This document shows positions 1,975 to 18,215 of a stretch of 64,000 nucleotides of DNA, in pieces. The notes below the pieces were generated by a model. The model was not told the DNA's origin. It did not search any database and saw nothing but the letters and a program-made list of their open reading frames with translations. The position numbers and the translations under genes are program-made. This DNA is from Kumtagia ephedrae. GTDB taxonomy: Bacteria; Pseudomonadota; Alphaproteobacteria; Rhizobiales; Rhizobiaceae. The stretch is taken from contig NZ_PXYK01000006.1 in NCBI RefSeq assembly GCF_003012745.1, positions 124,001 through 188,000 of the forward strand, in the 5' to 3' direction. Numbering within the stretch: the stretch's first letter is position 1; every line of letters begins with the position of its first letter.

Positions 1975-2086
1975 CGATTCTCCGACGTGGAGCGACCGGC
2001 GCACCATCCCGTTCCGCCAAACTTGACGCTCCCAGCGCGGAACACTAGGACGGGGCCACCTTTTCCAGCCCGCCGACGAGGCTCCG

Positions 2087-3208
2087 TTGTCTGCCAGCCT
2101 GCCCGACCATATGCACCCCAGCCGTTCGTTCCAGGGGCTGATCCTGACGCTGCACAATTACTGGGCCGCCTATGGCTGCGTGGTTTTGCAGCCCTACGAC
2201 ATGGAGGTCGGCGCCGGCACCTTCCATCCGGCGACGACGCTTCGCGCGCTCGGGCCGAAACGCTGGAACGCCGCCTATGTACAGCCGTCGCGGCGGCCGA
2301 AGGACGGCCGCTATGGCGAGAACCCCAACCGGTTGCAGCACTACTACCAGTACCAGGTCATCCTGAAGCCGAACCCGCCGGACCTCCAAAAACTCTATCT
2401 CGGCTCGCTGGAGGCGATCGGCGTCGATCCGCTGCTGCACGACATCCGCTTCGTCGAGGACGACTGGGAAAGCCCGACGCTGGGCGCCTGGGGGCTCGGC
2501 TGGGAGTGCTGGTGCGACGGCATGGAGGTGTCGCAATTCACCTATTTCCAGCAGGTCTGCGGCATCGAATGCGCGCCGGTGTCGGGCGAGCTCACCTACG
2601 GGCTTGAGCGGCTGGCCATGTATGTGCAGGGCGTCGACAACGTCTACGACTTGAACTTCAACGGCCGCGACGGCGACGAGAAGGTCACCTATGGCGACGT
2701 CTTCCTGCAGGCCGAGCAGGAATATTCGCGCCACAATTTCGAGCATGCCGACACGGCCATGCTGCTGCGCCACTTTGACGACGCCGAGAAGGAATGCCAG
2801 GCCCTGCTGAAGGCCGGCGCGCCCCTCTCCCCCCTCGAGGGGGAGATGGCCGCAAAGCGGCCAGAGGGGGTAACCTCAGAAGGCACCTCCAGAACGTCGA
2901 GCACGGCCGTAGCGACCCCTCCCGACCAGCCTTCGGCTGGCCACCCTCCCCTCAAGGGGGAGGGGAGCCACCGCATGGTCTTCCCCGCCTACGACCAGGC
3001 GATCAAGGCTTCCCACGTCTTCAACCTGCTCGATGCCCGCGGCGTCATCTCGGTCACCGAGCGGCAGAGCTACATTTTCCGGGTAAGAGAATTGGCGAAG
3101 CAATGTGGTCTTGCATTTCTTAAGACCGAGGCGGGCGGATTCGCTCCCAATAATGCTCCCAATAATACTGACGCATACAAGAATCATCCGCTTTTTGGAA
3201 AATTCTAG
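2087..3208 (+). CDS. glyQ: Glycyl-tRNA synthetase alpha subunit, with in-frame repeat insertion
   Basis: This is the catalytic alpha subunit of the alpha2-beta2 glycyl-tRNA synthetase, which charges tRNA-Gly. Recognisable blocks are [43 protein letters not shown] and [16 protein letters not shown]. At 373 residues it exceeds the usual 300-310, mainly because a palindromic element is inserted in frame at about residues 246-294. The C-terminal tail is AT-rich and holds a duplicated PNNAPNN. A TTG start at 2087 is preceded by GAGG; the ATG at 2111 (MHPSRSFQG) is an alternative matching many homologues. glyS follows after 3 bases. Confidence 0.95.
2822..2966. repeat. Palindromic element family A, copy inside glyQ
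   Basis: About 145 bp. It begins with a CTCCCCCCTCGAGGGGGAG hairpin, has a second small hairpin (GGCCGCAAAGCGGCC), a middle segment with ACGTCGAGCAC, a third hairpin (CCAGCCTTCGGCTGG) and ends with CCCTCCCCTCAAGGGGGAGG. It is read in frame as part of GlyQ, starting [10 protein letters not shown]. It lies in the linker between the conserved catalytic part and the C-terminal helical part, a place where homologues have only a short loop. Copies of the same family are in glyS and at 16631. Confidence 0.85.
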
Positions 3209-3211
3209 CCG

Positions 3212-6025
3212 ATGCCCGACATTCTCCTTGAACTCCGCTCCGAGGAAATCCCCGCCCGCATGCAGCGCAAGGCGGCGGGCGACCTGCGCAAGATGGTCAC
3301 GGACGGTCTTGTCGAGGCCGGCCTAATCTACGAGGCGGCGCGCGAATACTGGACGCCGCGGCGGCTCGTGCTCGATGTGCGGGGGCTCACTGCCCGCTCG
3401 AAGGACGTGCGCGAGGAGCGCAAGGGCCCGAGCACAAAAGCGCCCGACCAGGCGATCCAGGGTTTTCTGCGCTCCGCCGGGCTTACCGACATCGCGCAGG
3501 CGGAAATCCAGACGGACCCGAAAAAAGGCGATTTCTACGTCGCCCGCGTCGTCAAGCCGGGCCGCGCGGCGGAGGAGATCATCGCCGCGCTGCTGCCGGA
3601 GGTGATCAGGACGTTTCCGTGGCCGAAATCGATGCGCTGGGGCGCCGCGTCGGGACCGAAAGGGTTGCGCTACGGCAAGACCGAGGGGCGCGGCGGCGAG
3701 GCGCTGCGCTGGGTGCGGCCGCTGCAGTCGATCGTCTGCACCTTCGGGCCGGAGACCGAGGAGCCGGTGGTGGTCGATTTCGCGGTCGACGGCATCCGCT
3801 CGGGCAACACCACCTACGGCCACCGTTTTCACGCGCCCGAGGCGATTTCCGTCAGGCGCTTCGACGACTACGTGGCCAAGCTGGAGGCGGCCAAGGTGAT
3901 CATCGATGCCGAGCGGCGCAAGGAGATCATTCTCAGCGACGCGAAAAATCTCGCTTTCGCCAACGGGCTCGACCTGGTCGAGGACGAGGGCCTGCTGGAG
4001 GAGGTGTCGGGGCTGGTCGAATGGCCGGTCGTGCTGATGGGCGAGTTCGACGAGGCGTTCCTCGCCATCCCGGCCGAGGTGATCCGGCTGACGATCCGGG
4101 CAAACCAGAAGTGTTTCGTGACGGCGCCCCTCTCCCCCCTCGAGGGGGAGATGTCGGCGAAGCCGACAGAGGGGGTAACCTCAGAAGGCACCGCCAAAAG
4201 AACGTCGAGCACTGCCGAGGCAACCCCCTCCGCCGCCTTCGGCGCCACCTCCCCCTCGAGGGGGGAGGGAAGGCTGGCGCCGCGGTTCCTCCTCACCGCC
4301 AACATCGAGGCCAGGGACGGCGGGCGTGAGATCGCCCACGGCAACGGCAAGGTGGTGCGGGCGCGGCTATCCGACGCGCTGTATTTCTGGAAGACCGATC
4401 AGGCCGACCTGCCCGACCTCGACAAGCTGGAAGCATCGGCGGAAAAGTTCGGTCTGAAGCGCGATGCGGTCGGAAAACTCCTGCCGCTCGACCAGCGCAT
4501 GGCCCGCCTCGACCATCTCGGCGTGACCTTTCATGCGAAGCTCGGAACGCAGGGCGAGCGTGTCGAGCGCATCGCAAGACTTGCTGAAGAGCTGGCGCCG
4601 ACGGTCGCGCTAGCTTTCTCCCCCCTTGCGGGGGAGATGGCCGGCAGGCCAGAGGGGGTACCCTCAGAAGGCACCACCGGAACGTCGAGCACTGCCGGAA
4701 CGACCCCACCCGGCCGCTTCGCGGCCACCCTCCCCTCAAGGGGGAGGGAAGCGTCGAGCACTGCCGGGACGCCCCCCTCTGTCGCCTCCGGCGACATCTC
4801 CCCGGAGATTGGCGCCCTCGCCCGCCGCGCCGCGCTGCTCGCCAAGGCGGACCTCACGACCGAGGTGGTCGGCGAGTTTCCCGAGTTGCAGGGCGCCATG
4901 GGCCGCAAATACGCGCTGCTTCAGGGCGAGAACCCGTCCGTCGCTGCCGCGATCGAGGAGCACTACAAGCCGCAAGGCCCGTCCGACCGCGTGCCGACCG
5001 ATCCCGTGTCGATCGCCGTCGCGCTGGCCGACAAGCTGGACACGCTGGTCGGATTCTGGGCGATCGACGAGAAGCCCACAGGGAGCAAAGACCCCTATGC
5101 GCTGCGCCGCGCGGCGCTGGGGGTGATCAGGATTGCGGTAGAGAATCAGGTGCGATTAAGGCTATTTCCTCATTTTCAATCGCTATGGATATTTCATTTG
5201 CTGAATGAGCGGTCTGATCAGCGAAAGATCATCAAAGATCATCTTCTGACACTTGAGCATATGTCTCCATCTGTGCGATTTGCAAGGCTGAAAGAGTTTA
5301 TCGATTCACTTCCTCGCTCGCGAAGAAATCCACACAGCGACGATGCTCTTCCTGATCTCCTCTCCTTCTTCCACGACCGCTTGAAAGTCTACCTCCGCGA
5401 CCAGGGCGCGCGGCATGACCTGATCGACGCGGTGCTGGCGAGCCGGGCGCCACTCTCCCCCCTTGCGGGGGAGATGTCGGCGAAGCCGACAGAGGGGGTA
5501 ACCTCAGGAGGCACCGCCAAAGGAACGTCGAGCACCGCCGAAGCTACCCCCACCGCCGCCTTCGGCGGCACCTCCCCCGCAAGGGGGGAGGGCGCGTCGG
5601 CGAACGACGACCTGCTCACCATCGTGCGCCGGGTCGAGGCGCTGGGCTCCTTCCTCGACAGCGAGGACGGCAAGAACCTGCTCGCCGGGACGAAGCGCGC
5701 CGCCAACATCCTTGCCGCCGAGGAGAAGAAGGGCACGGCGATCGCCGCTATCGTTGACCCGGCGCTGTTCCGCGAGGATGCCGAGAAGGCACTGTTCGCG
5801 GCCGTGAACCAGGCCGAGCGGGAGGCCGGCGAGGCGATCCGGCAGGAGGATTTTTCGGCCGCCATGCGGGCGCTGGCGGCGCTGCGGGCGCCGGTCGACA
5901 GCTTCTTCGACAAGGTGCTGGTGAACGACGAGGACGTGGCGGTGCGGGCCAACCGGCTGGCGCTGCTGGCGCGCATCCGCGCCGCCACCGGCCAGGTCGC
6001 CGATTTCTCGAGAATCGCCGGATGA
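3212..6025 (+). CDS. glyS: Glycyl-tRNA synthetase beta subunit, enlarged by three repeat insertions
   Basis: This is the beta (tRNA-binding, HD- and anticodon-domain) partner of Gly[19 protein letters not shown] is the typical N-terminus, and the [10 protein letters not shown] and anticodon-domain [19 protein letters not shown] blocks are present. The product has 937 residues against about 690-750 normally. The excess is mainly three in-frame copies of palindromic element A, near residues 306-354, 469-532 and 747-793, the second followed by a truncated extra copy. Residues about 640-713 come from unusually AT-rich DNA and resemble the family poorly. No stop or frameshift interrupts the gene, so it is probably functional, since it is essential. 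Confidence 0.95.
4126..4272. repeat. Palindromic element family A, first copy inside glyS
   Basis: This copy has the same order of hairpins as the glyQ copy and the same orientation: CTCCCCCCTCGAGGGGGAG at the left, ACGTCGAGCACTGCC in the middle, GCCGCCTTCGGCGCC near the right and a CCCCCTCGAGGGGGGAGG end. It is read in the same frame as the glyQ copy, giving [10 protein letters not shown] at its start and [10 protein letters not shown] in the middle. It falls just after the conserved RANQKCFV stretch and before [11 protein letters not shown]. Confidence 0.85.
4617..4806. repeat. Palindromic element family A, second glyS copy plus truncated tandem copy
   Basis: Positions 4617-4750 form a complete element with a CCCCCTTGCGGGGG left hairpin and a CCCTCCCCTCAAGGGGGAGG right end. 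It is directly followed by a second right-half-only copy (about 4750-4806) that starts again at GCGTCGAGCACTGCCG and ends in a CTCCGGCGACATCTCCCC segment. The half copy keeps the reading frame (SSTAGTPP). This looks like tandem insertion followed by deletion, or insertion of one element next to another. Confidence 0.75.
5452..5591. repeat. Palindromic element family A, third copy inside glyS
   Basis: About 140 bp in the same orientation and reading frame as the other coding copies, giving [10 protein letters not shown] and [10 protein letters not shown]. The left hairpin is CCCCCCTTGCGGGGG and an internal hairpin is GCCGCCTTCGGCGGC. It is inserted within the C-terminal anticodon-binding domain, between [14 protein letters not shown] and the [13 protein letters not shown] helix, a surface loop in homologues (inferred). 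Confidence 0.85.
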
Positions 6026-6080
6026 TCCTTTCGCCCGAGCCGGCGCCGGCCCGGATGCGTCGGCCCGCCTGTTTCCGGCG

Positions 6081-6590
6081 TCACATGGGCAGGATCGCCG
6101 GTCCCGGCGCGGCTGGCGGCGTGGGCGGCGCCAACTCGGGCCGAGGCGTGGAAACAGGCGCCGGCCCGGAGGCGGCAGGTTGCGGTTCCGCCATTGGCGG
6201 AGCAGGCTGCCGGGACGCCACGGCCTTGTCCTTTTTCCCTTCCTTGCGGCCATTCCGGGACTTCGACTGCGGCGGCTCGACCGGCTCGGCCGCCCCGCCC
6301 GAGGCTTCGTCGACAACGCCGCCGCGGATCACCACAGGGGTGGCGTGGGCCCCGGCCGCTTGCCCCGCCGCCGGCCGGCCGAAAGCGACCATCGACGGGC
6401 TAACCGCCCGCCGCGTCGGGGCGGCGGCATCCGCCGCTGCCCGCTCAGCGCCGGCGGATTGCGGCTTGTCGACAGCCGTGATGGAAGAAGACCCGCTTGC
6501 CTGGTGCGGCGGCGCCTCGACCAGCGACGACGCCTGCGCACTGCCCGAAACCAGCGCGAGAATCGCCAAGGTCGCGCCTGTCAGCCGCAT
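6081..6590 (-). CDS. Secreted Ala/Pro-rich hypothetical protein
   Basis: The product has 169 residues. It begins with a clear signal peptide (MRLTGATLAILALVSGSAQA, with cleavage probable after AQA). The mature part is low complexity: Ala and Pro dominate, a KSRNGRKEGKKDK basic patch lies near residue 115, and the C-terminus is a proline-rich tail. No enzymatic domain was recognised. GGGGGA sits just upstream of the ATG. It is divergent from the Sua5 gene, sharing a 144-base promoter region, and convergent with glyS. It is most likely a periplasmic or cell-surface protein of unknown role. Confidence 0.65.
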   Translation of the reverse strand: MRLTGATLAILALVSGSAQASSLVEAPPHQASGSSSITAVDKPQSAGAERAAADAAAPTRRAVSPSMVAFGRPAAGQAAGAHATPVVIRGGVVDEASGGAAEPVEPPQSKSRNGRKEGKKDKAVASRQPAPPMAEPQPAASGPAPVSTPRPELAPPTPPAAPGPAILPM

Positions 6591-6734
6591 GGGTCCCCCA
6601 AAAACGCTTCGATTGACTTTCGGCGTGCCGAAGCCGATGCCGTGGCCACAATCGCATCGAGTGGTTGATCAAGTTTCACGAGACCGGGGCAAAGCCATGA
6701 TCGCGCGGGCCCATTCTGGAGAGAGGGTTAACGC

Positions 6735-7712
6735 TTGGCTGAGGTGATCGCCGCTGGCTCCGCGATGGAGGCCGCGCTGGCGCTGCTTTCGGCCGGCGAA
6801 GTGGTCGCCGTGCCCACCGAGACCGTGTACGGGCTGGCCGGCGACGCCACCAGCGGCGAGGCGGTGGCGCGCATCTTCGAGGCGAAGGGCCGGCCGCGCT
6901 TCAACCCGCTGATCGCGCATGTCGGCTCGCTCGCCATGGCCGAGGAACTCGCGATCTTCGACCCGCTGTCGCGGCGGCTGGCCGAAAAATTCTGGCCGGG
7001 GCCGTTGACCCTCGTCCTGCCGCTCAAACCCGGATCGGCCATCCATCCGCTGGTCACCGCGGGTCTCGACACGGTGGCGCTGCGCATGCCGCGCGGCTTC
7101 GCCGCCGGGCTGATCGCGCGGCTGGGCCGGCCGTTGGCCGCCCCCAGCGCCAACCGCTCGGGCCGCATCAGCGCCACCACGGCCGCGGCGGTGGCCGAGG
7201 ATCTGGGCGAGCGCATCCCGCTGGTCGTCGACGACGGCCCGACGCCGGTCGGGGTCGAATCCACCATCGTCAAGGTTGAGGACGGGCGGCCGAGGCTGCT
7301 GCGCCCCGGCGGGGTCGCAGCGGCGGAGATCGAGGCGGTTGCCGGCATGGCGCTGGCAAGGAGCGGCGCCGCTGCCGGCATCGAGGCGCCGGGCATGATG
7401 ACCTCGCACTACGCGCCGGGTGCCGCGGTCCGCCTGAACGCGGTCGAGACGTTCGCAGACGAGGCGCTGCTCGCCTTCGGACCGCAGCGCGCCCGCGGCG
7501 CCGAGCAGGCGCTCGCCATCCGCAATCTTTCGGAGCGCGGCGACCTGCGCGAGGCGGCTGCCAACCTGTTCTTCCACCTGAAGGAACTGGACCGGCTCGG
7601 CGCGGCCATGATCGCCGTCGAGCCGGTGCCGGACACCGGCCTCGGCGAGGCGATCAACGACCGGCTGGCGCGCGCCGCGGCGCCGCGCGATGCAGACGAC
7701 GACAATGAGTGA
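6735..7712 (+). CDS. tsaC: L-threonylcarbamoyladenylate synthase (Sua5/YrdC type)
   Basis: This enzyme makes threonylcarbamoyl-AMP from threonine, bicarbonate and ATP, the first step of the t6A37 modification of ANN-decoding tRNAs. The YrdC domain fills residues 1 to about 200, with PTETVYGLAGDA, the KGRPRFNPL nucleotide-binding motif and APSANRSGRIS. A C-terminal Sua5 domain follows, linked by the PGMMTSHYAPGA segment. The 325 residues fit the long Sua5 form. TTG at 6735 is preferred because GAGAGG lies 8 bases upstream; an in-frame ATG exists at 6765. Only 3 bases separate it from the next gene, so the two are probably co-transcribed. Confidence 0.93.
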   Translation: MAEVIAAGSAMEAALALLSAGEVVAVPTETVYGLAGDATSGEAVARIFEAKGRPRFNPLIAHVGSLAMAEELAIFDPLSRRLAEKFWPGPLTLVLPLKPGSAIHPLVTAGLDTVALRMPRGFAAGLIARLGRPLAAPSANRSGRISATTAAAVAEDLGERIPLVVDDGPTPVGVESTIVKVEDGRPRLLRPGGVAAAEIEAVAGMALARSGAAAGIEAPGMMTSHYAPGAAVRLNAVETFADEALLAFGPQRARGAEQALAIRNLSERGDLREAAANLFFHLKELDRLGAAMIAVEPVPDTGLGEAINDRLARAAAPRDADDDNE

Positions 7713-7715
7713 GAG

Positions 7716-9152
7716 ATGACAACCGAGATCTTTGACGACGTGTCCTTCCAGGCAGTGCTCGACCGCTTCGCGAAAATCGTCGGCCCCGCGCATGCGCTGA
7801 CCGACGCCGCCGACATCGCGCCCTTCGTCACCGAGCATCGCGGCCTCTATCCCGGCCTGACGCGACTGGTGCTGAAGCCGGGCAGCGTCGAGGAGGTCGG
7901 CCGCATCCTGAAGCTCGGCAGCGAGACCGGGACGGCCATCGTGCCGCAGGGCGGCAACACCGGTCTGGTGGGCGGCGGCGTGCCTGACCGTTCCGGCCGG
8001 CAGGTGGTGCTGTCGCTGTCCAGGCTGAACCGCATCCGCGAGGTCGACACGCTCTCCAACACCATCACCGCCGAGGCCGGCGTGATCCTGCAGAGCCTGC
8101 ACGACGCGGCCGAGGCGGTGGACCGGCTGTTCCCGCTGTCGCTCGCCTCGCAAGGCTCCTGCGAGATCGGCGGCAATCTCTCCACCAATGCCGGCGGCAC
8201 GGCGGTGCTGGCCTATGGCAATGCGCGCGAACTCTGCCTCGGCGTCGAGGTGGTGCTGCCCACCGGCGAGATCTTCGACGATCTGCGCAAGCTGAAGAAG
8301 GACAATACCGGTTACGACCTGAAGAACCTGTTCGTCGGCGCGGAAGGCACGCTGGGCGTGATCACCGCGGCGGTGCTGAAGCTTTTCCCGAAGCCGCGCG
8401 GCAAGGAGGTGGCCTTTGCCGGGCTGGTCTCGCCGGAAGCGGCGCTCGACCTGCTCGGCCGCGCGCAGGAGCGCGCCGGCTCGGGACTCACCGCCTTCGA
8501 GCTGATCGGCGCGCGCCCGATCGAGTTCGCGCTGCGTCATCTGTCCGGGGGTGTCGCTCCGCTCGCCGATCAATGGCCCTGGTACGTGCTGATGGAGGTC
8601 TCCTCCAGCCGCTCGGCCGAGGAAGCCCGTGCGACGATCGAGGAAATCCTCGGCGAGGCGCTGGAGGCTGAGCTGGTCGGCGACGCGGTGATCGCCGCGA
8701 GCCTGGCGCAGGCCGCCGCCTTCTGGAAGCTGCGCGAGGACATTTCCGACGCGCAGAAGCCCGAGGGCGCCTCGATCAAGCACGACATCTCGGTGCCGGT
8801 CGCCTCGATCCCCGCCTTCATCGCGCGCGCGGCCGAGGCCGTCGCCTCGGTCAGCCCGCAGGCGCGCGTCGTCTGCTTCGGCCACATGGGCGACGGCAAC
8901 CTGCACTACAATGTGTCGCAGCCGGTAGGCGCCGACCCGAAGGAATATCTCGCCCTCTACAAGCCGATGAACAAGGCCGTGCACGATGTCGTGCGCGACC
9001 TCGGCGGCTCGATCTCGGCCGAGCACGGCATCGGGCAGATGAAGCGGGCCGAACTCGCCCTCACCGCCCCGCCCGTGGCACTGGACCTGATGCGGCGCGT
9101 CAAGGCCGCTTTCGACCCGGCCGGGATCATGAATCCGGGCAAGGTGATCTGA
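7716..9152 (+). CDS. FAD-binding oxidoreductase, GlcD / D-2-hydroxyglutarate dehydrogenase type
   Basis: The 478 residues carry an N-terminal PCMH-type FAD domain (PQGGNTGLVGGGVPD at about 86-100, GSCEIGGNLSTNAGGT at about 146-161, GAEGTLGVITAAVLKLF at about 208-224) and a FAD-oxidase C domain with FGHMGDGNLHYN and SAEHGIGQMKR, which carry metal- and substrate-binding residues. Such enzymes oxidise D-2-hydroxyacids (D-lactate, glycolate or D-2-hydroxyglutarate) and pass electrons to quinone or an electron-transfer flavoprotein. The exact substrate is not decidable from sequence alone. It follows the Sua5 gene with a 3-base gap, an arrangement I have seen in other Rhizobiales. Confidence 0.9.
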   Translation: MTTEIFDDVSFQAVLDRFAKIVGPAHALTDAADIAPFVTEHRGLYPGLTRLVLKPGSVEEVGRILKLGSETGTAIVPQGGNTGLVGGGVPDRSGRQVVLSLSRLNRIREVDTLSNTITAEAGVILQSLHDAAEAVDRLFPLSLASQGSCEIGGNLSTNAGGTAVLAYGNARELCLGVEVVLPTGEIFDDLRKLKKDNTGYDLKNLFVGAEGTLGVITAAVLKLFPKPRGKEVAFAGLVSPEAALDLLGRAQERAGSGLTAFELIGARPIEFALRHLSGGVAPLADQWPWYVLMEVSSSRSAEEARATIEEILGEALEAELVGDAVIAASLAQAAAFWKLREDISDAQKPEGASIKHDISVPVASIPAFIARAAEAVASVSPQARVVCFGHMGDGNLHYNVSQPVGADPKEYLALYKPMNKAVHDVVRDLGGSISAEHGIGQMKRAELALTAPPVALDLMRRVKAAFDPAGIMNPGKVI

Positions 9153-9203
9153 GGGATCCGCTTCCGTGCCCTCGGGGCTCTGACAAGGGGCTTTGCACAG
9201 ATT

Positions 9204-9311
9204 TCACCGCACCGGCGGCACCGGGATCGGCCCGGTCGGCGGCACCGGTGTCGGCGTCGGGTCGGGCGCAGGATCGGGATCGGGAAACGGTCTGGGCGGG
9301 TTCGATTGCAT
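9204..9311 (-). CDS. Small proline-rich peptide (35 residues)
   Basis: The minus strand has a near-perfect Shine-Dalgarno, AAAGGAGG, ending 5 bases before an ATG (complement of 9309-9311). The 36-codon frame ends in TGA at 9204-9206. The peptide starts MQSNPPRPFPDPDPAP and continues as alternating Pro with Asp, Thr, Val, Gly or Ile, ending PVPPVR. There is no signal peptide or membrane helix. The repeated GGCACCGG and GGATCGGG seen on the plus strand are simply its codons. It lies alone in a 406-base gap. The strong SD supports translation; function is unknown. Confidence 0.55.
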   Translation of the reverse strand: MQSNPPRPFPDPDPAPDPTPTPVPPTGPIPVPPVR

Positions 9312-9558
9312 CGGGACCTCCTTTGCGCTCAAACGTCCTGCCCACGCCCCGGTTCCGCCGCACCTCCCCGACGCAGGATCGATCGCCCCGGCTTGGCCGC
9401 CCCGAAGCGTCGCGGGACCGGCAGCGAAACTGCGACTGCCTGCTGCTAAGGCTTTCGAGGCGCTCGGCCCGCCCTGTCTCTTGACTGTCGCGCCGATGCC
9501 GGCCTAGCATCTCGCAGATGCGAAGGCATCCCTTCGCAAGCGCGAGAGAGGCGGCCGT

Positions 9559-10263
9559 ATGATCCTGGTGGGTGGCAGCCATGCAACGGCGATACGTCAG
9601 GCGGCCCGGTCGATGGGTGTCGACCTGAACTTCCACGTCTTTCACCGCAACTCCCCGCTCTGGCCATCCGGAAAAGAGCTGTTCCAGCCGGAATTCCTGG
9701 CAGAGTTCAACGGTCTCGAAGGCACCATCTTCTCGTCGCTGGGCGGCAACAGCCACAACGTCATGGGCTTGATCGAGCACCGGGCTCCCTTCGACTTCGT
9801 CCACCCCAGGATCAAGACCAAGGCCAAGACCGACGATGACAGGACCTGGGTGCCGTTTTCGGCCGTCAAGCAGAGCATCGAGCAGACCGCCGGAACATTC
9901 CTGCGGCTCCTGCAGGGCTTTGCGGAACGCTATCCCGGACGCGTGGTCCACCTGCAGTCGCCACCGCAGATCGAGGACGAGACCTTCATTCGCCAGGGTA
10001 TCGTGGACAAGGGAACGGATGCCAGAAAGACCGGGCTGGCAAAATTCGGCATCGCCCCCGCCGCCCTGCGGTACAAGCTGTGGCGGCTCAACTCGGAGAT
10101 ATTCGAAGAAAGGTGCGCCGAACTCGGGGTCAAGTTCGTTCCCGTGCCGTCTGCCTCGATAACGCGGTCGGGCTTCCTGAAGCGGAAATATTGGGGCGAC
10201 CCGACGCACGCCAACGCCGCCTACGGCAAGCTCGTCCTCGAACAGATGAGGCAGCACGCGTGA
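9559..10263 (+). CDS. SGNH/GDSL-like hydrolase family protein
   Basis: This 234-residue protein is not closely recognised. Several blocks resemble the SGNH hydrolase fold: MILVGGSHA at the N-terminus in place of GDS, SSLGGNSHN at about residue 55 where the GxND block would be, and DPTHANAAYGKL near the C-terminus, which fits the DxxH catalytic pair. The usual N-terminal catalytic Ser is therefore in a GGSH context. Its stop overlaps the GTG start of the following GSCFA gene by 4 bases, and GSCFA proteins belong to the same superfamily. An acyl-ester or O-acetyl transfer/hydrolysis role on a surface glycan is plausible but inferred. Confidence 0.6.
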   Translation: MILVGGSHATAIRQAARSMGVDLNFHVFHRNSPLWPSGKELFQPEFLAEFNGLEGTIFSSLGGNSHNVMGLIEHRAPFDFVHPRIKTKAKTDDDRTWVPFSAVKQSIEQTAGTFLRLLQGFAERYPGRVVHLQSPPQIEDETFIRQGIVDKGTDARKTGLAKFGIAPAALRYKLWRLNSEIFEERCAELGVKFVPVPSASITRSGFLKRKYWGDPTHANAAYGKLVLEQMRQHA

Positions 10264-11321
10264 CACATCCCTACAGGAATGCGCCCGACTACCGACGCTG
10301 GAGCCGGGCGATGGGAGGTCTCGCCGGCGAGGCCGTCGATCCCGTCGTGTCGTTCCCCTTCAGGGTCGGCAGAACCGAGCGGGTCGTGACCGCCGGGAGC
10401 TGCTTCGCCCAGCATATCGCCCGCTATCTCACCGAGCAGGGCTTCAACCATTACATCGCCGAGCGGCCGCACACGGTCCTGAGGGAAGAGGTCGCAAGAG
10501 AACACAATTACGGCATGTTCTCGGCCCGGTACGGAAACATCTATACGGCCCGCCAGCTGCGGCAGCTTCTGCAGCGCGCGCATGGCCGCTTCGTGCCGAA
10601 GGAGGAGTACTGGCTGAAGGGAGAACGGTATCTCGATCCGTTTCGTCCGCAGATCAATCCCGGCGGCTTCCATTCCCTGGAGGAGCTTCGCCGCGACCGC
10701 AAGCAGCATCTGGAGCGGGTGCTTCACGCGTTCAAGGCCGCTCGCGTGTTCGTCTTCACGCTCGGGCTGACCGAGGCGTGGGTCGACCGCGAGGACGGAG
10801 CCGTCTTCCCGATCTGCCCGGGGGTGGAGGGCGGCACGTTCAGCCCGGACCGCTACGCATTCGTCAACTTCTCCCTCGCCGAAGTCCTCCTGGACATGAA
10901 ATTGGCGATCCAGGCGCTGCGGCGCCTCAATCCGAAACTCAAGATCATCCTCACGGTCTCGCCCGTTCCCCTGGCGGCGACGGCCGAGGACCGCCATGTC
11001 CTGGTGTCGACGACGCTGTCGAAGAGCGTGCTGCGCGTCGCCGCCGACACGCTGTCGCGCGAGATCGCCAACGTCGCCTATTTCCCGTCCTACGAGATCA
11101 TCACGGGCAACCATGCCCAGGGGCGGTACTTCGACCGGGACCTGCGCTCCGTGACCGAGGAGGGCGTGCGCCACGTCATGAGGCTGTTCTTCCAGCACGC
11201 CGCGGAAGAGGGCGAGGCACCGGTCCCCGCCAAAGCGCCCAGCGCCCGGTTGCGCGAGGAAGATGCCGCCCGGGAGGTGGCCGAAGTCCTCTGCGACGAG
11301 GCCTTGCTCGATCCGACCTGA
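10260..11321 (+). CDS. GSCFA-domain protein
   Basis: The 353-residue product has the family-defining motif as AGSCFAQHIARYL at about residues 41-53, with the conserved NYGMFSARYGNIYTARQL and FVFTLGLTEAWVD blocks after it; this is a complete GSCFA domain. GSCFA proteins are SGNH-superfamily relatives thought to act as acyl hydrolases or transferases and are often found near polysaccharide genes. GTG at 10260 is chosen because it overlaps the upstream stop (GTGA) and the domain starts shortly after; the frame is open for 60 codons further upstream. The C-terminal 50 residues are charged and variable. Confidence 0.85.
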   Translation: MTHPYRNAPDYRRWSRAMGGLAGEAVDPVVSFPFRVGRTERVVTAGSCFAQHIARYLTEQGFNHYIAERPHTVLREEVAREHNYGMFSARYGNIYTARQLRQLLQRAHGRFVPKEEYWLKGERYLDPFRPQINPGGFHSLEELRRDRKQHLERVLHAFKAARVFVFTLGLTEAWVDREDGAVFPICPGVEGGTFSPDRYAFVNFSLAEVLLDMKLAIQALRRLNPKLKIILTVSPVPLAATAEDRHVLVSTTLSKSVLRVAADTLSREIANVAYFPSYEIITGNHAQGRYFDRDLRSVTEEGVRHVMRLFFQHAAEEGEAPVPAKAPSARLREEDAAREVAEVLCDEALLDPT

Positions 11322-11360
11322 TCCGGCGCCGGCACCAGCTGCCGTCGCTTCGGTGTTCAG

Positions 11361-11380
11361 GCGCATGCCATGGCATGCGC
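11361..11380. other. Perfect 20-bp palindrome
   Basis: GCGCATGCCA is followed without spacer by its exact reverse complement. It lies 39 bases past the GSCFA stop, in a 290-base gap before the DUF6101 gene. There is no T-run, so it is not a simple intrinsic terminator. It could be a protein-binding site. Apart from this site, the gap shows only an AT-richer stretch (about 11405-11510) that could hold the promoter of the next gene. Confidence 0.45.
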
Positions 11381-11611
11381 TCGTGAGCGGCGTTCTGCTC
11401 GCGCATTTAACCTCCCGTTGAGATGGATTTCCCAATCCTTGCGGTGGGTTGCATTCCGCTAACCATCGGCCGGATCAGGGAAAATTTAACCGATTTCCTT
11501 AAGCGGGCAGGTAAACCCGCCGCGCTATTGTCTTGCTCATAAAGAACCCGGCCAACCGGGACAGGGAGACCGGAACACCGGCTCTCGAGAGCGACAGGAA
11601 GGCAGTCAAAA

Positions 11612-12184
11612 ATGAGCACGAGCACCCGACTGATGCCAGTCTGGGCGGGACGCAACATGCGCCTCGACCCCTCCCGCTTGCCGCAGGTGGTGAGCTACGC
11701 CAGCCGCGACGACCTCGGCGACGTCACCTTCACCATCGACCGCCGCGGCGCCGTGCTGCGCCGGCGGCTCGACCGCAGCGGCCTGCCGGTGACGGTGGCG
11801 CTGCCGGCGCGCGCCTTTCTCGGCGTGGCGGCCCGCGCCATGGAGGACGAGACGGGCACCGTCACGGTGACGCTTGAGCTCCTGCACCGCGACCCCATGC
11901 TGTCGGTGCCGCTGCTGGTCGCCGACGATCTCGAGGACGTGGCCGCCGACTGGCGCGCCTGGTCGGACGCCTACGGGCTGCCGATGCTGCTGGTCGAGGC
12001 CGACGGCGTCGCCCGCACGCTGGAGGAATCGCTCGGCGCCGCGATCAGGGCGCTGCCGCCGCAGGCGCGGCGCCAGGGGCGCGCCACCCGGGCGCGCCGG
12101 CCGCGCTTCCTGGTGCGCCGCAAGGCCGGCGACCTCGGCCTGCGCCTGGTGGTCGAGGGGCACGAGATCATCGCGCCGTTCTGA
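11612..12184 (+). CDS. DUF6101 family protein
   Basis: The 190-residue product begins with a WAGRNMRLDPSRLPQ block, followed by the RGAVLRRRLDRSGLPVTVALPARAFLGVAAR stretch that I associate with the Rhizobiales family DUF6101. The C-terminal third is very basic (ARRQGRATRARRPRFLVRRK) and ends in IIAPF. No signal peptide or membrane helix is visible. Function is unknown. A strong bidirectional terminator lies 46 bases downstream, shared with the convergent atp operon. Confidence 0.7.
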   Translation: MSTSTRLMPVWAGRNMRLDPSRLPQVVSYASRDDLGDVTFTIDRRGAVLRRRLDRSGLPVTVALPARAFLGVAARAMEDETGTVTVTLELLHRDPMLSVPLLVADDLEDVAADWRAWSDAYGLPMLLVEADGVARTLEESLGAAIRALPPQARRQGRATRARRPRFLVRRKAGDLGLRLVVEGHEIIAPF

Positions 12185-12229
12185 GGCCGAACCGGCGGTG
12201 TCACACGCAAATCACCGCCGGATCACAAC

Positions 12230-12258
12230 AAAAAGCCGCCGGAATCCGGCGGCTTTTT
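12230..12258. terminator. Bidirectional intrinsic terminator
   Basis: AAAAAGCCGCCGG, a 3-base loop (AAT) and CCGGCGGCTTTTT form a perfect hairpin with an A-run on one side and a T-run on the other. It sits between the stop of the DUF6101 gene (plus strand) and the stop of atpF (minus strand) and can end both transcripts. Confidence 0.9.
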
Positions 12259-12281
12259 GTATCTGCTAACCGAAAAAGCGA

Positions 12282-12761
12282 TCAGTTCAGGCGGGTTTTC
12301 AGCGCGTCGAGCGAGGATTTGAACAACTCGCCGCCGACCTTCTGGTCGACCTTGCCCGCGAGCACGGTCCGCGCCGCCTCGACGGCGATATCGACCGCCC
12401 TGGCGCGCACCTCGTTGACGGCGTCGCGCTCGGCCTGGCCGATCTTCTGCTCGGCCAGCGCGGCGCGGCGCGTCACATAATCCTCGGTCTTCTGCTTGGC
12501 CTCGGCGACGAGCTGGCCGGCCTCGCGCTTGGCGTGCTCGACGATCTCGGCCGCTTCCTTCTCGGCTTCCTTGCGCTTGCGCTGGTACTCGGCCAGGAGC
12601 TGCTGCGCCTCTTCGCGCAGGCGGCGGGCTTCCTCCAGCTCGGCCTTGATCTTCTCGGCGCGGGCGTCGAGCGACTTGCCGACCGTGCCCGGCACCTTCA
12701 TGTAGAAGATGAGGGCCAGGAAGAGGACGAGGGCTACGGTGGCCCAGAATGTGGCGTCCAT
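12282..12761 (-). CDS. atpF: F0F1 ATP synthase subunit b
   Basis: This is the peripheral-stalk subunit of the ATP synthase. The 159 residues are an N-terminal membrane helix (FWATVALVLFLALIFYM, residues 5-21) followed by a long charged coiled coil rich in Glu, Lys and Ala, as expected for b. It is the last gene of the minus-strand order atpI-atpB-atpE-atpF'-atpF, 11 bases after the b' gene, and is followed by the strong terminator at 12230. Together with b' it makes the heterodimeric stator of alphaproteobacteria. The F1 genes are not in this window, also normal for Rhizobiales. Confidence 0.96.
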   Translation of the reverse strand: MDATFWATVALVLFLALIFYMKVPGTVGKSLDARAEKIKAELEEARRLREEAQQLLAEYQRKRKEAEKEAAEIVEHAKREAGQLVAEAKQKTEDYVTRRAALAEQKIGQAERDAVNEVRARAVDIAVEAARTVLAGKVDQKVGGELFKSSLDALKTRLN

Positions 12762-12772
12762 GATCCGCTCCC

Positions 12773-13435
12773 TCAGCCTTGCGCCGACTTCACGGCCGCG
12801 GCGACCGCGGCCTTGTCGACGGTCCCGCCGACCAGCTCGCGCACGATGGCGGTTGCCGTGTCCTCGGCGATGGTGCCGACTTCGTTCATGGCCTTGCCCT
12901 TGATCGCGGCGATGCTGGCCTCGGCCTCTCCGAGACGGCGATCCAGATCGGCCTCGACGCGCTTGCGCTCGGCCTCCGCGTCGGCCCGCGCCTTGTCGCG
13001 CGCCTGCTGGCCGATCGTGTTGGCGTTGGCCTTGGCCTCGGCCAGTTCCTGCTCATAGGCGGCGACGGCCGCGTCGGCCTCGCCCTTCATGCGGGCAGCC
13101 TGATCGAGATCCTGGGCGATGCGGTCGCTCCGCACCTCGAGGATGCCGCCGATGCGCGGCAGCACGACCTTCTTCAGGAACAGGTAGAAAAGCCCGAAGG
13201 TGATCGCCAGCCACAGGAGCTGCGACGGGAAGGTCGATGAATCGAACGGCGGAAACAGGTCCGAGCCGTGGTCGGCGCCGGTTTCGGTATGAGCCCCGCC
13301 TGCCGGATGCGCCTGGCCCTCGGGATGGGCTTCTCCGATCGGATGCGCTTCGCCCGCCGGGTGCGTCCCGCCTTGCGTATGAGCTTCGCCTTCCGCCGGG
13401 GCGGTTTCCTGAGCGTAGCCAGGTGTCACAAACAT
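12773..13435 (-). CDS. atpG: F0F1 ATP synthase subunit b', with His-rich N-terminal repeats
   Basis: This is the second b-type stalk subunit (b', also called AtpF2 or AtpG). The membrane helix is at about residues 72-88 ([17 protein letters not shown]) and a coiled coil follows. The 220 residues exceed the usual 160-200. The extra part is residues 10-55, a run of short repeats of the form GEAHPxG/GxAHPxG with seven His residues, after a YAQ motif that resembles a signal cleavage site. This region would lie on the periplasmic side. Metal binding is possible but inferred. The C-terminal dimerisation helix is normal. Confidence 0.94.
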
Positions 13436-13496
13436 CTTCTTCCCCTGTCCGGAACCGGCCGCGCCATGCGGCCGGCAACATCTTCACCCGAAAAGA

Positions 13497-13721
13497 TCAG
13501 GTGAAGAGGAGCAGGAGGGCGACGAGCAGCGAGAAGATGCCCAGCGCTTCCGTCACGGCGAAGCCGAAGATCAGGCGGCCGAACTGGCCGTCGGCGGCCG
13601 ACGGATTGCGCAGCGCGCCCGCCAGATAATTGCCGAAAATGGTGCCCAGGCCGATACCGGCGCCGCCCATGCCGAGGCAGGCGATACCCGCGCCGATCGC
13701 CTTTGCTGCATCTACTTCCAT
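13497..13721 (-). CDS. atpE: F0F1 ATP synthase subunit c
   Basis: This is the ring-forming proteolipid of the proton-driven rotor. The 74 residues form two membrane helices joined by the polar RNPSA loop (residues 38-42). The first helix carries the glycine-rich [10 protein letters not shown] packing motif, and the second holds the proton-carrying Glu in [10 protein letters not shown] (about residue 58). Length and sequence are typical of alphaproteobacteria. It lies between atpB and atpF' in the F0 operon. Confidence 0.97.
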
Positions 13722-13791
13722 GTCAAACTCCTTGTGGATCGTAATCCGGTTGAGAAAATCTACGAGAGCGGCGCGCGCCGCCGGTTCGTCC

Positions 13792-14541
13792 TTAGTGGCT
13801 GGGGTGCAGCGCGTCGTTCAGGTACATGCAGGTCAGCACGGCGAAGACGTAGGCCTGCAGGAACGCCACGAGGAATTCGAGGGCGGTGATGGCGACCGTC
13901 ATGATCAGCGGCAGGATGGCGCCGAAGACGCCGACCGCGCCGAACGCGCTGAGCGAGGTGACAAAGCCCGCGAAGACCTTCAGCGTGATGTGGCCGGCGA
14001 GCATGTTGGCGAACAGACGGACCGAGAGGCTGATCGGCCGCGACAGGAACGAGATCACCTCGATCAGCACGACCAGCGGCACGAGGATGCCCGGCACGCC
14101 CTGCGGCACGAACAGTTTCAGAAAGCCGAAACCGTGCTTCATGAAGCCGTAGACGATCACCGTGCCGATCACCAGCAGCGCCAGGGCGAAGGTGACGATG
14201 ATGTGGCTGGTGACGGTGAAGAAATAGGGGAACAGGCCGAGCAGGTTCGCGACCAGCACGAACATGAACAGCGAAAACACCATCGGGAAGAACTTCATGC
14301 CGTGCGAGCCGGCGGCGTCGCGCAACATGTTGGCGACGAACTCGTAGGACATTTCCGACAGCGACTGCAGCCGGCTCGGCACCAGGCCGCGGCTCGACGT
14401 CGTCAGATAGAGGAAGGCGCCGGAGACGGCGACCGTCGCCACCATGAAGGCGGAGGAATTGGTGAATGAGAAGTCCATGCCGCCGATCTCGATCGGAATC
14501 AGCTTCGCGATCTGGAACTGATGGATCGGATCGTTGGCCAT
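13792..14541 (-). CDS. atpB: F0F1 ATP synthase subunit a
   Basis: This is the stator channel subunit that passes protons to the c-ring. The 249 residues start at [11 protein letters not shown], the usual family start; the frame is open 28 codons further upstream, but that part is not conserved and would run almost to the atpI stop. Five to six membrane helices are visible. The essential Arg is in [15 protein letters not shown] (about residue 165), followed by the last helix with [14 protein letters not shown]. It is in the atpI-B-E-F'-F operon. Confidence 0.96.
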
Positions 14542-14581
14542 TCGGCCCCCCTCGGCTTGCGGCGCAGCGCGCCAGTCAAAT

Positions 14582-14983
14582 TCAATCCTCGCGGCGGTCC
14601 GGGGTTGGCACCCTGGCGCCTGCATCGGCGATCTTTCCCGCCGACCGCATCACGTTGAGCACGCCGGCGGCAAACCCGAGCAGCAGGAACACGATCAGTC
14701 CCCAGGGCGAGGTTCCGGCCAACCGGTCGATGAACCAGCCAAGGCCGGCTCCAACCGCCACTCCGGCGATGAATTCGCTCGACAGCCTTAGCGCCTGGCC
14801 GTAGCCGACCGCGCCAGACGATCTGGCTGCATTCCCCGTGTCGCCCTCGCCGCGGCCGCGCGCCGCAAGCGATGCTTCGAGCCTTTGCCTTCGGCGCTCC
14901 AGCTCGTCGTCCGCAGCATGCTGCGGGTCGCCGCTTCCGGGTCCGGTTCTTCCGGCTTTACCTGGCTTTTTTTCGCCAGCCAC
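14582..14983 (-). CDS. atpI: ATP synthase protein I (AtpI/AtpQ family)
   Basis: This is the first gene of the F0 operon. The C-terminal half has two membrane helices ([20 protein letters not shown] and [20 protein letters not shown]), the AtpI signature; family members help assemble the c-ring or act as Mg2+ transport factors. The N-terminal 60 residues are charged and disordered. GTG at 14983 is chosen because GAGGGG precedes it by 5 bases, giving 133 residues; the frame stays open to an ATG at 15085 without a clear ribosome site. A 41-base gap separates it from atpB. Confidence 0.85.
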
Positions 14984-15211
14984 CGCAACCCCCTCGCCCG
15001 GACGGGAGCTCGTGTCCGTCCGCTTCAAAGTCGCCGGCAACATAGTTAGAGGCCCTGCCCCCGTCAAGCCGCGTCGGGACTTCACAGCAGTTGTATTTTC
15101 CTGATATGATTCAATGGCTTGCTCGGGTGCGACATCCTGACCCGCGATTTCGGCAGCCGTGTCGGCGCCGGATCGGGCAAAAGCCGTGGTCGACGCGCCC
15201 TTGGAGAGTCG

Positions 15212-16513
15212 TCAGCTCCAGCCGCCGCCATAGGTGCGGTAGAAGATGTGCAGGCCGATCTTGGTCATCTTCTGCATGGCGCGCGCCCAGCCCGGGCTCA
15301 CATATTCGGCGTAATAATGCGTCGCGGAGCCGACCTCCTGAATGAATATCTTTCCAGCCGTGACCGCCATCGCCACTTCCTGGGCGCGGCGGTAGTGGCC
15401 GGGGCTGAGTATGCGGTCCTTCTTGCCGTCGCAGGCGAAGGAGAACTGGCAGCGGTTGAACCAGGAATCGTTCTGATAGACGACGCCGCAGATCGTCTTC
15501 GGATAGGTGGGGTTGCGCACCCGGTTCAGCACCACCTGGGCGACGGCCGCCTGCCCGCGCAAGGATTCGCCGCGCGCCTCGAAATAGACGGCGCTGGCGA
15601 GGCATTGCTGCTCCTTGTCGGAGAATACCGAAGCCGGCAGCGGCTGCTGCATCCAGGCGTGGTCGCCCTCGGCGAGCGGCGGCACGAAGCGCCCGTCATT
15701 GGGATCGTCGTTCAGCAGCGCCTCGAAGGGCGAGGCGCTGGCATAGTCGGGCTCGCGCGCCGCATAGGCGGTGGCCAGGACGTCGGCCTTGTCGCTGGTG
15801 ACCAGGTCGGCGAGATAGGCGGGAATCGCAGGGTCCGGCTTCTTCGCCTCCTTGACGTAGAAGGCGGTGGCGATCTGGATCTCCTTGCCTTTGATGTCGG
15901 GCTTGGCGAAGGCCATCTTCAGCTCGGGCTCGATCGTGGGCCTCAGCAGCATCGAGGTGCGCTCGAGGATCGAGCCGGCATTGAAGAATTTCGGCGGGGC
16001 CACCGGCGCGACATTGACGATGCGGCCCTTCTTGTCGGCGCGGTTGATGCGATCCTCGTCCGGAAGCGCAGCGGCGGCACCGACCTTGCCGCGGAAAGCC
16101 ACCGCGCCGATGCCGGGCGCGGACATGCCGGAGCCGGAGATCGTTCCGGTAACGTCCGTATCGGTGAAAGGCATCTCGGCGGCATGCACCGAGCCGGCGA
16201 CCGCCTTCTCGACATAGCCGCTCCAGCGCGTCGACCCGGCCTCGGTGCCGGAGACCATGCTGGCCATGTCCTGGTAGGCGACGCTGGTGGGGAAGCCGAG
16301 CCAGATGCCGGTTCCCACGACCAGCGCAGGCAGCACCGCCAGCCGGGGCACGAGGCGCGGCAGCGACCGCGCCGCCCGCCGCGCCATGCCGCCCGCGGCG
16401 ACGCCCAGCGCCCGTGCCGCGCGGGCGCCGGCGACCAGACAGGAAATGACAATGAGAAGGGTCTTCGCGACCAAGGCAACGGCAAACCGTCGCGACACAA
16501 GATGTCGAAACAA
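15212..16513 (-). CDS. Cell wall hydrolase, SleB type
   Basis: The C-terminal 130 residues are a Hydrolase_2/SleB domain (CLASAVYFEARGESLRGQAAVAQVVLNRV, then CDGKKDRI and ATHYYAEYVSPGWA), a family that cleaves peptidoglycan at N-acetylmuramic acid. The Glu of YFEARGE is the probable catalytic acid. The N-terminus has a membrane helix (about residues 10-32) and a second hydrophobic stretch near 65, so the enzyme is membrane-anchored with the domain in the periplasm. A long linker lies between. TTG at 16513 has GGAGAG 6 bases upstream; another TTG at 16540 is in frame. The gene is monocistronic, upstream of atpI. Confidence 0.88.
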   Translation of the reverse strand: MFRHLVSRRFAVALVAKTLLIVISCLVAGARAARALGVAAGGMARRAARSLPRLVPRLAVLPALVVGTGIWLGFPTSVAYQDMASMVSGTEAGSTRWSGYVEKAVAGSVHAAEMPFTDTDVTGTISGSGMSAPGIGAVAFRGKVGAAAALPDEDRINRADKKGRIVNVAPVAPPKFFNAGSILERTSMLLRPTIEPELKMAFAKPDIKGKEIQIATAFYVKEAKKPDPAIPAYLADLVTSDKADVLATAYAAREPDYASASPFEALLNDDPNDGRFVPPLAEGDHAWMQQPLPASVFSDKEQQCLASAVYFEARGESLRGQAAVAQVVLNRVRNPTYPKTICGVVYQNDSWFNRCQFSFACDGKKDRILSPGHYRRAQEVAMAVTAGKIFIQEVGSATHYYAEYVSPGWARAMQKMTKIGLHIFYRTYGGGWS

Positions 16514-16630
16514 GACTGACTCTCCAGGACGCAACAGCAACCCACCGGAGAGCGAGAGTGATGCATTAACCTTGATGGACGGTTAACAGGCGGGGTGAGG
16601 CGGGAATGAGGCGGCTGCCAGCCGCAACGA

Positions 16631-16775
16631 TCCCTCCCCCTCGAGGGGAGGGTGGCCGCGAAGCGGCCGGGTGGGGTCATCGCGGCCGTACTCGACGCAA
16701 GGCAGCGTTGGAGTACGGCCGCGATGACCCCACCCGCCTCGCTTCGCTCGGCACCCTCCCCTCAAGGGGGAGGGA
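16631..16775. repeat. Palindromic element family A, intergenic full copy
   Basis: A 145-bp element with TCCCTCCCCC at the left end and its exact complement GGGGGAGGGA at the right end. The two halves (about 68 bases each) are near reverse complements over their whole length: both contain the GTGGGGTCATCGCGG sequence in opposite orientation. It lies between der and the SleB-type gene. This undamaged copy shows that the family is one large imperfect palindrome, and the glyQ/glyS copies are derivatives of it. Confidence 0.85.
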
Positions 16776-16784
16776 TCGCCGCAG

Positions 16785-18215
16785 TCACCGCTTCTTCGCC
16801 TTCCCGGCGTAGGGATTGTCGGATGCCCTGAGCGCGATGCGGATCGGCACGCCCGGCATGTCGAAGGACTCGCGCAGGCTGTTCGACAGATAACGCACAT
16901 AGGACTGCGGCATCGCGTCGGGCCGCGAGCAGGAGACGACGAAGCCCGGCGGGCGCGCCTTCACCTGGGTGATGTATTTCACCTTGAGCCGGCGCCCCGC
17001 CACGGCGGGTGGCGGGTGGTGCGCCAGGATGCCCTCCAGCCAGCGGTTGAGACGCCCGGTGGAGACGCGGCTGTTCCAGACGCGGTGCGTCTCGACCACC
17101 GCTTCCATCAGCTTGTCCAGCCCGCGGCCGGTCTCGGCCGAGATCGGCACGGCGCGCAGCCCGCGCACCTGCGGCAGGAGCCGCTCCGTCTTCTCGCGCA
17201 GTTCGGCGAGCGTCGCCTGCGGCGTGTCGATCAGGTCCCATTTGTTGAAGGCGATCACCAGCGCCCTGCCCTCGCGGATGATCAGGTCGGCGATCTGCAG
17301 ATCCTGCTTCTCGAACGGGATGGTGGCATCGAAGACGATGACCACGACTTCGGCGAACTTGATGGCGCGCAGGCCGTCGGCGACCGAGAGCTTCTCCAGC
17401 TTCTCCTGCACCTTGGCCTTGCGGCGCATGCCGGCCGTGTCGAACAGTTTTATCCTGCGGCCGCGCCAGTCCCAGTCGACCGAGATCGAGTCGCGTGTGA
17501 TGCCGGCCTCAGGGCCGGTCAACAGCCGCTCCTCGCCGATCAGCGTGTTGATCAGCGTCGACTTTCCGGCGTTGGGCCGGCCGACCACGGCGATCCGCAG
17601 CGGCTTCGTCTCGTCATAGGCAGGCTCGTGATCCGCGTCGGCCTCGGAAATGTCCTCGCCGACCAGCACGTCGCTCTCGGCCGGCAGGTCGTCTTCCTCG
17701 TCGTCCGGAAAGCAGCGCGCCTCGCCGAGCGCCTCGACGATGGCGTCGCGCAGGTCGGGCATGCCCTGGCCGTGCTCGGCCGAGATCGGGATCGGCTCGC
17801 CGAGGCCCGCCTCCCACGCCTCCAGCGTGCCGCCTTCGGAGGCACGCGATTCCGACTTGTTGGCGGCCAGCACCACCGGCTTGCCGGATTTTCGCACGAT
17901 ATCGGCGAAGGCCTTGTCGTCGGGCAGCAGGCCGGCGCGGGCGTCGACCATGAAGATCACCAGGTCGGCCTCGCGGATGGCGATCTCCGTCTGCTCGCGC
18001 ATGCGGCCCTGCAAGGTGTGCGGCGCCGCCGTCTCGAACCCGGCCGTGTCGATGACGTCGAAGGAAAGGTCGTAGAGTTTCGCCGGATGGATGCGCCGGT
18101 CGCGCGTCACGCCCGGCGTGTCGTCGACCAGCGCCAGCTTCTTGCCGGCCAGCCGGTTGAACAGGGTCGACTTGCCGACATTCGGCCGGCCGATGATGGC
18201 TACCTTGAAGCTCAT
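16785..18215 (-). CDS. der: Ribosome biogenesis GTPase Der (EngA)
   Basis: An essential double GTPase for 50S assembly. The 476 residues have two G domains: G1 GRPNVGKST with DTPG and NKSE (residues 8-120), and GRPNAGKST with DTAG and NKWD (about 210-325). A C-terminal KH-like domain follows ([16 protein letters not shown]). An acidic linker between the G domains ([10 protein letters not shown] region) is usual for alphaproteobacteria. The gene starts only 4 bases after the stop of the TPR/YfgM-like gene, so both are in one transcript. Its 3' end is bordered by a repeat element. Confidence 0.97.

Follow-up and report, generated by a model that had tools for sequence, protein, structure and literature searches.

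How does an essential enzyme come to carry several copies of one palindromic repeat within its coding sequence, and why do these copies keep to one reading? The question is raised by glyQ and glyS, the genes for the two subunits of glycyl-tRNA synthetase (GlyRS), which lie in tandem in a stretch of 64,000 nucleotides, hereafter the window, from Kumtagia ephedrae, a soil bacterium related to Mesorhizobium. The window covers G000:C6:124001-188000, where G000 denotes the source draft genome (6.11 Mb, 99.74% complete). Four copies of a repeat of ~145 bp, called the element here, are found in frame in the two genes. The best explanation, to which a probability of roughly 0.78 is assigned, is that dispersed palindromes enter tolerant linkers of housekeeping enzymes and are filtered by translation. 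The features concerned are listed below.

2111-3208, + strand: glyQ, glycine--tRNA ligase alpha subunit, with one in-frame element (NCBIfam NF006827/TIGR00388)
2819-2966, + strand: element copy in glyQ, first unit in phase 0 and second unit in phase 2 (blastn, profile)
3212-6025, + strand: glyS, glycine--tRNA ligase beta subunit, 937 aa, with three in-frame elements (NCBIfam)
4124-4270, + strand: element copy 1 in glyS (site 1, between two predicted beta strands)
4617-4749, + strand: element copy 2 in glyS (site 2, between two predicted helices)
4750-4803, + strand: extra half unit directly 3' of glyS copy 2
5446-5592, + strand: element copy 3 in glyS (site 3, between two predicted helices)
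16626-16782, + strand: intergenic copy, related but of a different subfamily, 85% self-complementary

Both genes are uninterrupted open reading frames (~365 and 937 aa). Their four element copies lie on the same strand and match each other pairwise at 77-92% over 139-151 bp (blastn within the window, E ~1e-26 to 1e-57), with 91.8% identity over 147 bp between glyS copies 1 and 3 and 83.4% over 151 bp between the glyQ copy and glyS copy 1. The encoded peptide follows the pattern PLSPLxGEM..EGV.S.GT..SSTA..TP and reads FSPLAGEM in glyS copy 2. Relative to the unfilled rows of the alignment described below, 42, 65 and 52 residues are gained at GlyS sites 1, 2 and 3, which are 46, 69 and 52 residues long in the window and have a median length of 4, 4 and 0 in empty rows. 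The corresponding GlyQ segment spans 51 residues, as opposed to at most 12 in the unfilled rows that could be parsed. In total, ~200 extra residues are distributed over GlyQ and GlyS. An earlier reading of this DNA from its letters alone (the sequence-only reading) had described four copies in one orientation and frame that lengthen the enzyme by about 200 residues without breaking it, and both statements hold. A single glyQ gene and no dimeric-type GlyRS were found in the 99.74% complete draft. Since no second glycyl-tRNA synthetase was found, this enzyme must function with its ~200 extra residues, and the idea of a pseudogene or of a backup enzyme was rejected. The C-terminal tail of GlyQ (window 3085-3208) is AT-rich, with a GC content of 0.44, and differs from those of 13 other rows compared with it.

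The element consists of two inverted units of ~48 bp that resemble repetitive extragenic palindromic (REP) sequences, can each form a hairpin and flank a spacer. The intergenic copy at 16626-16782 had been taken for the undamaged full palindrome. It is indeed a better palindrome than the genic copies, being self-complementary at 85% over 157 bp. Its identity is 72% to the glyQ copy and 68% to glyS copy 1 (blastn), and its centre differs; for these reasons it is assigned to another subfamily, and its role as the intact parent form is not supported.

The phenomenon extends beyond glyQ and glyS. At least 71 element matches were obtained in G000, with 40 of 213 candidates scored. Detailed counts were made on five contig parts (C3, C5, C6, C8 and C12; 1,179,663 bases) using gene calls from a simple home-made caller; the parts were picked among contigs already known to match, so that density and genic share are biased as genome figures. 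A unit profile found 53 units there, 20 genic and 33 intergenic, one of the genic ones (C12:114419) sitting at a gene start that is possibly mis-called. A whole-element profile, whose score is biased by its derivation from the glyQ and glyS copies, found 29 places, 10 of them genic: 8 of the 9 places with at least 80 bits lie in genes, compared with 2 of the 20 weaker ones. Full-length copies of the window's own family (family A, see below) are genic in 9 of 16 cases and intergenic in 7, and four of the nine genic copies are those of glyQ and glyS. By NCBIfam and Pfam names, in-frame copies occur in ileS, polA, uvrD/pcrA, uvrB and the gene of a ligase-associated DEXH helicase, and further in cobN, xdhC and the genes of a biotin carboxylase, a GNAT protein, an ABC ATPase and an ADP-forming acyl-CoA synthetase. 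The copies in hrpB belong partly to another family, and the one in an RluB-like pseudouridine synthase is located near the C-terminus. ADP-forming acyl-CoA synthetases with in-frame units between domains are encoded at L377:2575-4815 of G000 and at L287:2574-4805 of the same-genus genome G001.

A second palindromic family of G000 (~118 bp) served as a control; of its 26 places in the 1.18 Mb examined, 24 were intergenic. Of the two genic copies, one sits at a possibly mis-called gene start and the other is in frame in a 770-aa gene (L168:17631-19940, equal to G000:C3:157631-159940), whose product we take to resemble penicillin-binding protein 1C. Copies of this second family are also present in the window at 28130-28247 and 34377-34495.

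A further control was another variable region of glyS (window aa 662-707), which gave no repeat match in 55 of 58 rows; its folding z-score was -3.2 or below in 1 of 58. Of the inserts at sites 1-3, 59 of 60 fold with z <= -3.2 and match the G000 sample in one or more places; each z-score is based on 30 mononucleotide shuffles and is therefore rough. This second kind of variable region, seen at window 5150-5365 (GlyS aa ~647-718), holds unrelated, ordinary-looking sequences in relatives. Its GC content is 0.44 in the window, compared with 0.69 in the rest of glyS (medians over 58 rows 0.553 and 0.639).

The reading phase of genic units is nearly fixed. For this count, the 53 units were combined with 72 units from 25 further G000 loci, likewise pre-selected as match-bearing, which gave 35 genic units, including one at a locus edge (L279:1-30). 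First units were in phase 0 in 16 of 17 cases, and second units were in phase 1 in 14 of 18, in phase 2 in 4 and in phase 0 in none. The same holds across 80 named loci around glyS: in glyS itself, first units are in phase 0 and second units in the preferred phase in 32 of 33 cases each; in glyQ all first (6/6) and second units (5/5) conform, the second always being in the alternative phase. In these counts, units inherited at a common site do not represent separate events. Stop codons do not explain the preference, because in each of the six frames 24 to 28 of the 28 full-length intergenic units are open; stop avoidance was therefore rejected as its cause, and the frame preference seen in the sequence-only reading is borne out. 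In a representative unit, the preferred reading contains one basic residue, and one of the unused readings has six arginines in 15 residues. In the 80 glyS loci, every one of the 77 coding units belongs to glyQ or glyS; the other called genes, ~535 kb in all, contain none, and 27 more units are intergenic.

To place the inserts among relatives, 97 GlyS sequences were aligned. The best-matching named GlyS are from Mesorhizobium and Aquamicrobium. At least 20 residues are present at sites 1, 2 and 3 in 16, 20 and 26 rows, respectively, although the segments of L067 at site 1 and of L067 and L079 at site 2 are long without being element-like, and some rows scored as empty hold short remnants. On a tree of the core protein, built by a quick method with 30 open forks from 96 rows (the window and two identical pairs included, L158 with its 369 aa and four truncated rows excluded), the minimum number of changes in the filled state is 12, 13 and 13 for sites 1, 2 and 3.

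The inserts belong to several families, to which the letters A to D were assigned by peptide pattern. Family A is that of the window, family B reads PLWGGRAEGAGGG..PPPQGEG, family C reads SPAGPSPR..SPSLRGEGKGEG and family D reads GPSGHLLPQGEK..SPLVGEGG. In different genomes, site 3 of GlyS is occupied by A, B, C or D, site 1 by A, B or D and site 2 by A or B. Similarly, one loop of IleRS holds A in the window genome, B in G001 and C in G003, is empty in G002 (G001 to G003 are of the same genus) and holds D or a D-like insert in G035 and G005. The same G002 is empty at all three GlyS sites as well. In GlyQ, six Mesorhizobium rows share family A with the window and G001 has family B, with 8 filled among 67 parsed of 93 rows. 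Each family is multi-copy at home: B has 27 matches in G001, C 44 in G003 and D 42 in G035, where both strands of a palindrome are counted and the places are thus fewer. The ileS copy is among the closest matches to the glyS copy in both G035 and G003. At the IleRS loci L300, L301, L302 and L303, split matches suggest that positions ~aa 235 and ~335 (window-genome numbering) are interrupted in some relatives.

An old structural domain, conserved in all relatives at the same sites, is not what was found at GlyS sites 1-3 or in the IleRS loop, where filling is patchy and families are mixed; it was rejected for these sites, though not for those in lhr, uvrB, uvrD and cobN. As judged from the aligned sequences, different families in the same loops point to repeated colonisation of tolerant linkers over old protein domains. 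A targeting at the DNA level, by which frame and slot would be set by the target sequence and not by protein tolerance, would account for the recurrence of slots and for the near-fixed phase. Against it, the residues just upstream vary by gene and the same slots take families with different ends; it is considered very improbable.

The constraint on the inserts was estimated from hand-chosen rows as the ratio of nonsynonymous to synonymous change (dN/dS). It is 0.51 in GlyQ (6 of 8 filled rows), 0.84 at site 2 (11 of 18) and 0.46 at site 3 (8 of 26), and 0.10, 0.12 and 0.21 in the respective flanks of up to 150 residues. Synonymous divergence (pS) is lower in the insert than in the flank, with 0.22 vs. 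0.48 at site 2 and 0.18 vs. 0.46 at site 3; GlyQ shows the same tendency less clearly. This pattern fits DNA that is young or homogenised and under weak protein constraint. In an AlphaFold2 model of GlyS (42 aligned sequences, mean predicted local distance difference test (pLDDT) score 72.3), the predicted fold matches solved bacterial GlyRS, and residues 313-351, 473-525 and 747-795 have pLDDT values below 50 and are flanked by better-predicted secondary structure, strands in the first case and helices in the other two. The model is also low in places outside the inserts, e.g. at 162-185 and 198-217. The three GlyS inserts are thus predicted to be unstructured loops of low confidence.

These data bear on whether the peptides are functional and selected, for instance by tuning tRNA binding, stability or DNA repair, which would explain why the same enzymes and slots are used again and again. 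The concentration of coding units in glyQ and glyS relative to neighbouring genes (77/77 in the 80 loci), a dN/dS below 1 and the recurrence of repair and tRNA enzymes, both here and in an earlier survey (PMC3733652), would be expected in that case. It is nevertheless judged unlikely: one slot accepts peptides of unrelated families, close relatives are empty, the inserts are predicted to be unstructured and their dN/dS is about two- to seven-fold above that of the flanks. Because insert dN/dS is 0.46-0.84 compared with 0.10-0.21 in the flanks, and because unrelated peptides occupy the same slots, tolerance is a better fit than benefit. The sequence-only reading had offered both possibilities for the encoded peptide; of the two, selection is weakly supported at best.

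The preferred explanation can be spelled out as follows. A REP-like palindromic repeat of ~145 bp would disperse, by a conjectural route, into flexible linkers of housekeeping enzymes. Copies would survive if their length leaves the host gene in frame and if translation takes the first unit in one phase and the second in one of two. The translated insert would form an unstructured loop rich in Pro, Ser, Gly, Thr and Glu that the enzyme tolerates, and the other readings, one of them arginine-rich, are rare or absent in genes and presumably purged. The same linkers (three in GlyS, one in GlyQ and one in IleRS) would then be refilled in different lineages by different multi-copy families. The data show the copies and their frames, a predicted lack of structure, patchy filling and more than one family per slot; from these we infer that the repeat is mobile, that the peptide is retained in the protein and that its effect is near neutral. 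Mobilisation by a REP-associated tyrosine transposase (RAYT) was dismissed, as a search of the 99.74% complete draft of G000 for the Y1/RAYT transposase (PF01797) yielded 0 matches, the control being positive in 5 of 14 genomes.

Several observations weigh against this explanation. The insert in lhr is common to G002 and G010, those in uvrB and uvrD are shared with G002 and that in cobN with G002 and G003; such sites in common with G002 are as vertical inheritance would give. Immediately downstream of the insert at site 3, the GlyS frame of L124, a metagenome-assembled genome, no longer follows the family. A clean insertion with a target duplication was sought and none was seen. At site 2, all 20 rows with at least 20 residues lack the GADP-like four residues of most unfilled rows, and the filled rows at site 3 share a local haplotype, VLASG..SN, that is unlike most unfilled rows. 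Shared flanks and the missing GADP imply that part of the spread is perhaps an exchange of filled alleles and not fresh insertion; local exchange of this kind, or replacement on entry, is likely to contribute. Finally, a dN/dS below 1 leaves room for some constraint on the peptide.

Part of this evidence agrees with inserts that were ancestral and later patchily lost or swapped by homologous recombination, their content being converted by other copies in the genome. Flanking residues in common among filled rows at sites 2 and 3, the GlyQ inserts of the window and Mesorhizobium in the same loop and phase, the equally placed lhr, uvrB, uvrD and cobN inserts of G002 and the short remnants in rows scored as empty all suit such a history. 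It would have to accommodate as many as four families sharing a slot, a minimum of 12-13 changes for each site on the quick tree of the core protein and an insert pS below flank pS at sites 2 and 3, as expected of younger or homogenised DNA, and we regard it as improbable, if slightly less so than selected peptides.

Beyond the single enzyme, essential enzymes of Phyllobacteriaceae may, tentatively, offer in their loops and linkers a shared niche that unrelated palindromic families colonise in parallel. Some repeat lineages might even be adapted to translation, given that the best matches of genic copies are often genic themselves (glyS and ileS in G035 and G003; ileS, polA and uvrD in G000). 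The PolA slot holds low-complexity linkers in other relatives, which could be decayed remains. If parallel colonisation is true, repeats would continually supply new disordered protein sequence. One slot in one essential enzyme, either empty or filled by unrelated repeats, provides many natural replicates, which allow testing whether translated selfish repeats are tolerated or useful and how disordered loops originate. As a caution, odd lengths of GlyRS, IleRS, PolA and UvrB in these bacteria may reflect repeats and not domains.

Reviews present the Rickettsia palindromic elements (RPE) as the known case of frequent in-frame palindromes (PMC2229807, PMC10969869); a gmk gene with an RPE is translated and its product active (PMC2229807), and Rickettsia orthologs carry the RPE insert at the same locus (PMC3767692). 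The element is similarly a palindrome of ~100-150 bp in frame in conserved genes, with a peptide that is probably tolerated. The resemblance noted from the sequence alone holds for this in-frame behaviour and is one of form. Unlike RPE, orthologs differ here in the presence and family of the insert at GlyS and IleRS, and the host has GC-rich DNA and is no obligate intracellular bacterium of the Rickettsia kind.

Among dispersed repeats of Rhizobiales, Rhizobium-specific intergenic mosaic elements (RIME), Sm repeats and ABC palindromes are described as intergenic (PMC2573895), whereas the element is also genic; the distinction is drawn from their description. A 147-base query (E 1e-5) matched 10 plasmid records, mostly over about one unit, none of which is from Sinorhizobium. 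A known RNA family was considered and discarded for window 2000-17000, where all 10 Rfam matches are below the gathering score. Of the features of miniature inverted-repeat transposable elements (MITEs), inverted arms are present and no clean target duplication was seen; the search for a parent element covered PF01797. In the open-licence literature searched, by title, abstract and selected passages, neither these Rhizobiales families in genes nor a near-fixed phase or a parallel filling of GlyRS and IleRS slots by four families was found reported.

The closest parallel is provided by the REPs tagged with GTAG or CGTC, short palindromic units that mostly form head-to-head dimers and are in many cases intergenic (PMC3733652). 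They were found in frame in excision-repair genes (uvrB, UvrD) and in genes of DNA polymerase I, helicases, tRNA synthetases and pseudouridine synthases (PMC3733652, Di Nocera and co-workers 2013), and recB of two Xanthomonas carries different REPs at about the same site (PMC3733652). In-frame palindromes in uvrB, polA and tRNA synthetases were thus already in print by 2013, and with this survey and the RPE literature the kind of event is known. Units of the window genome are likewise in frame in repair genes and tRNA synthetases. They differ from tagged REPs in that GTAG is near the end of 10 of 53 units and CGTC of 11 of 53 on either strand, at an estimated chance of ~12, that no RAYT (Y1) transposase (PF01797), with which the GTAG type is associated, was found in the window genome and that the pair of units is longer (~145 bp, ~48 aa). 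What is added here to the description of tagged REPs is the occupation of one slot by up to four families across genomes and the measurement of a near-fixed reading phase.

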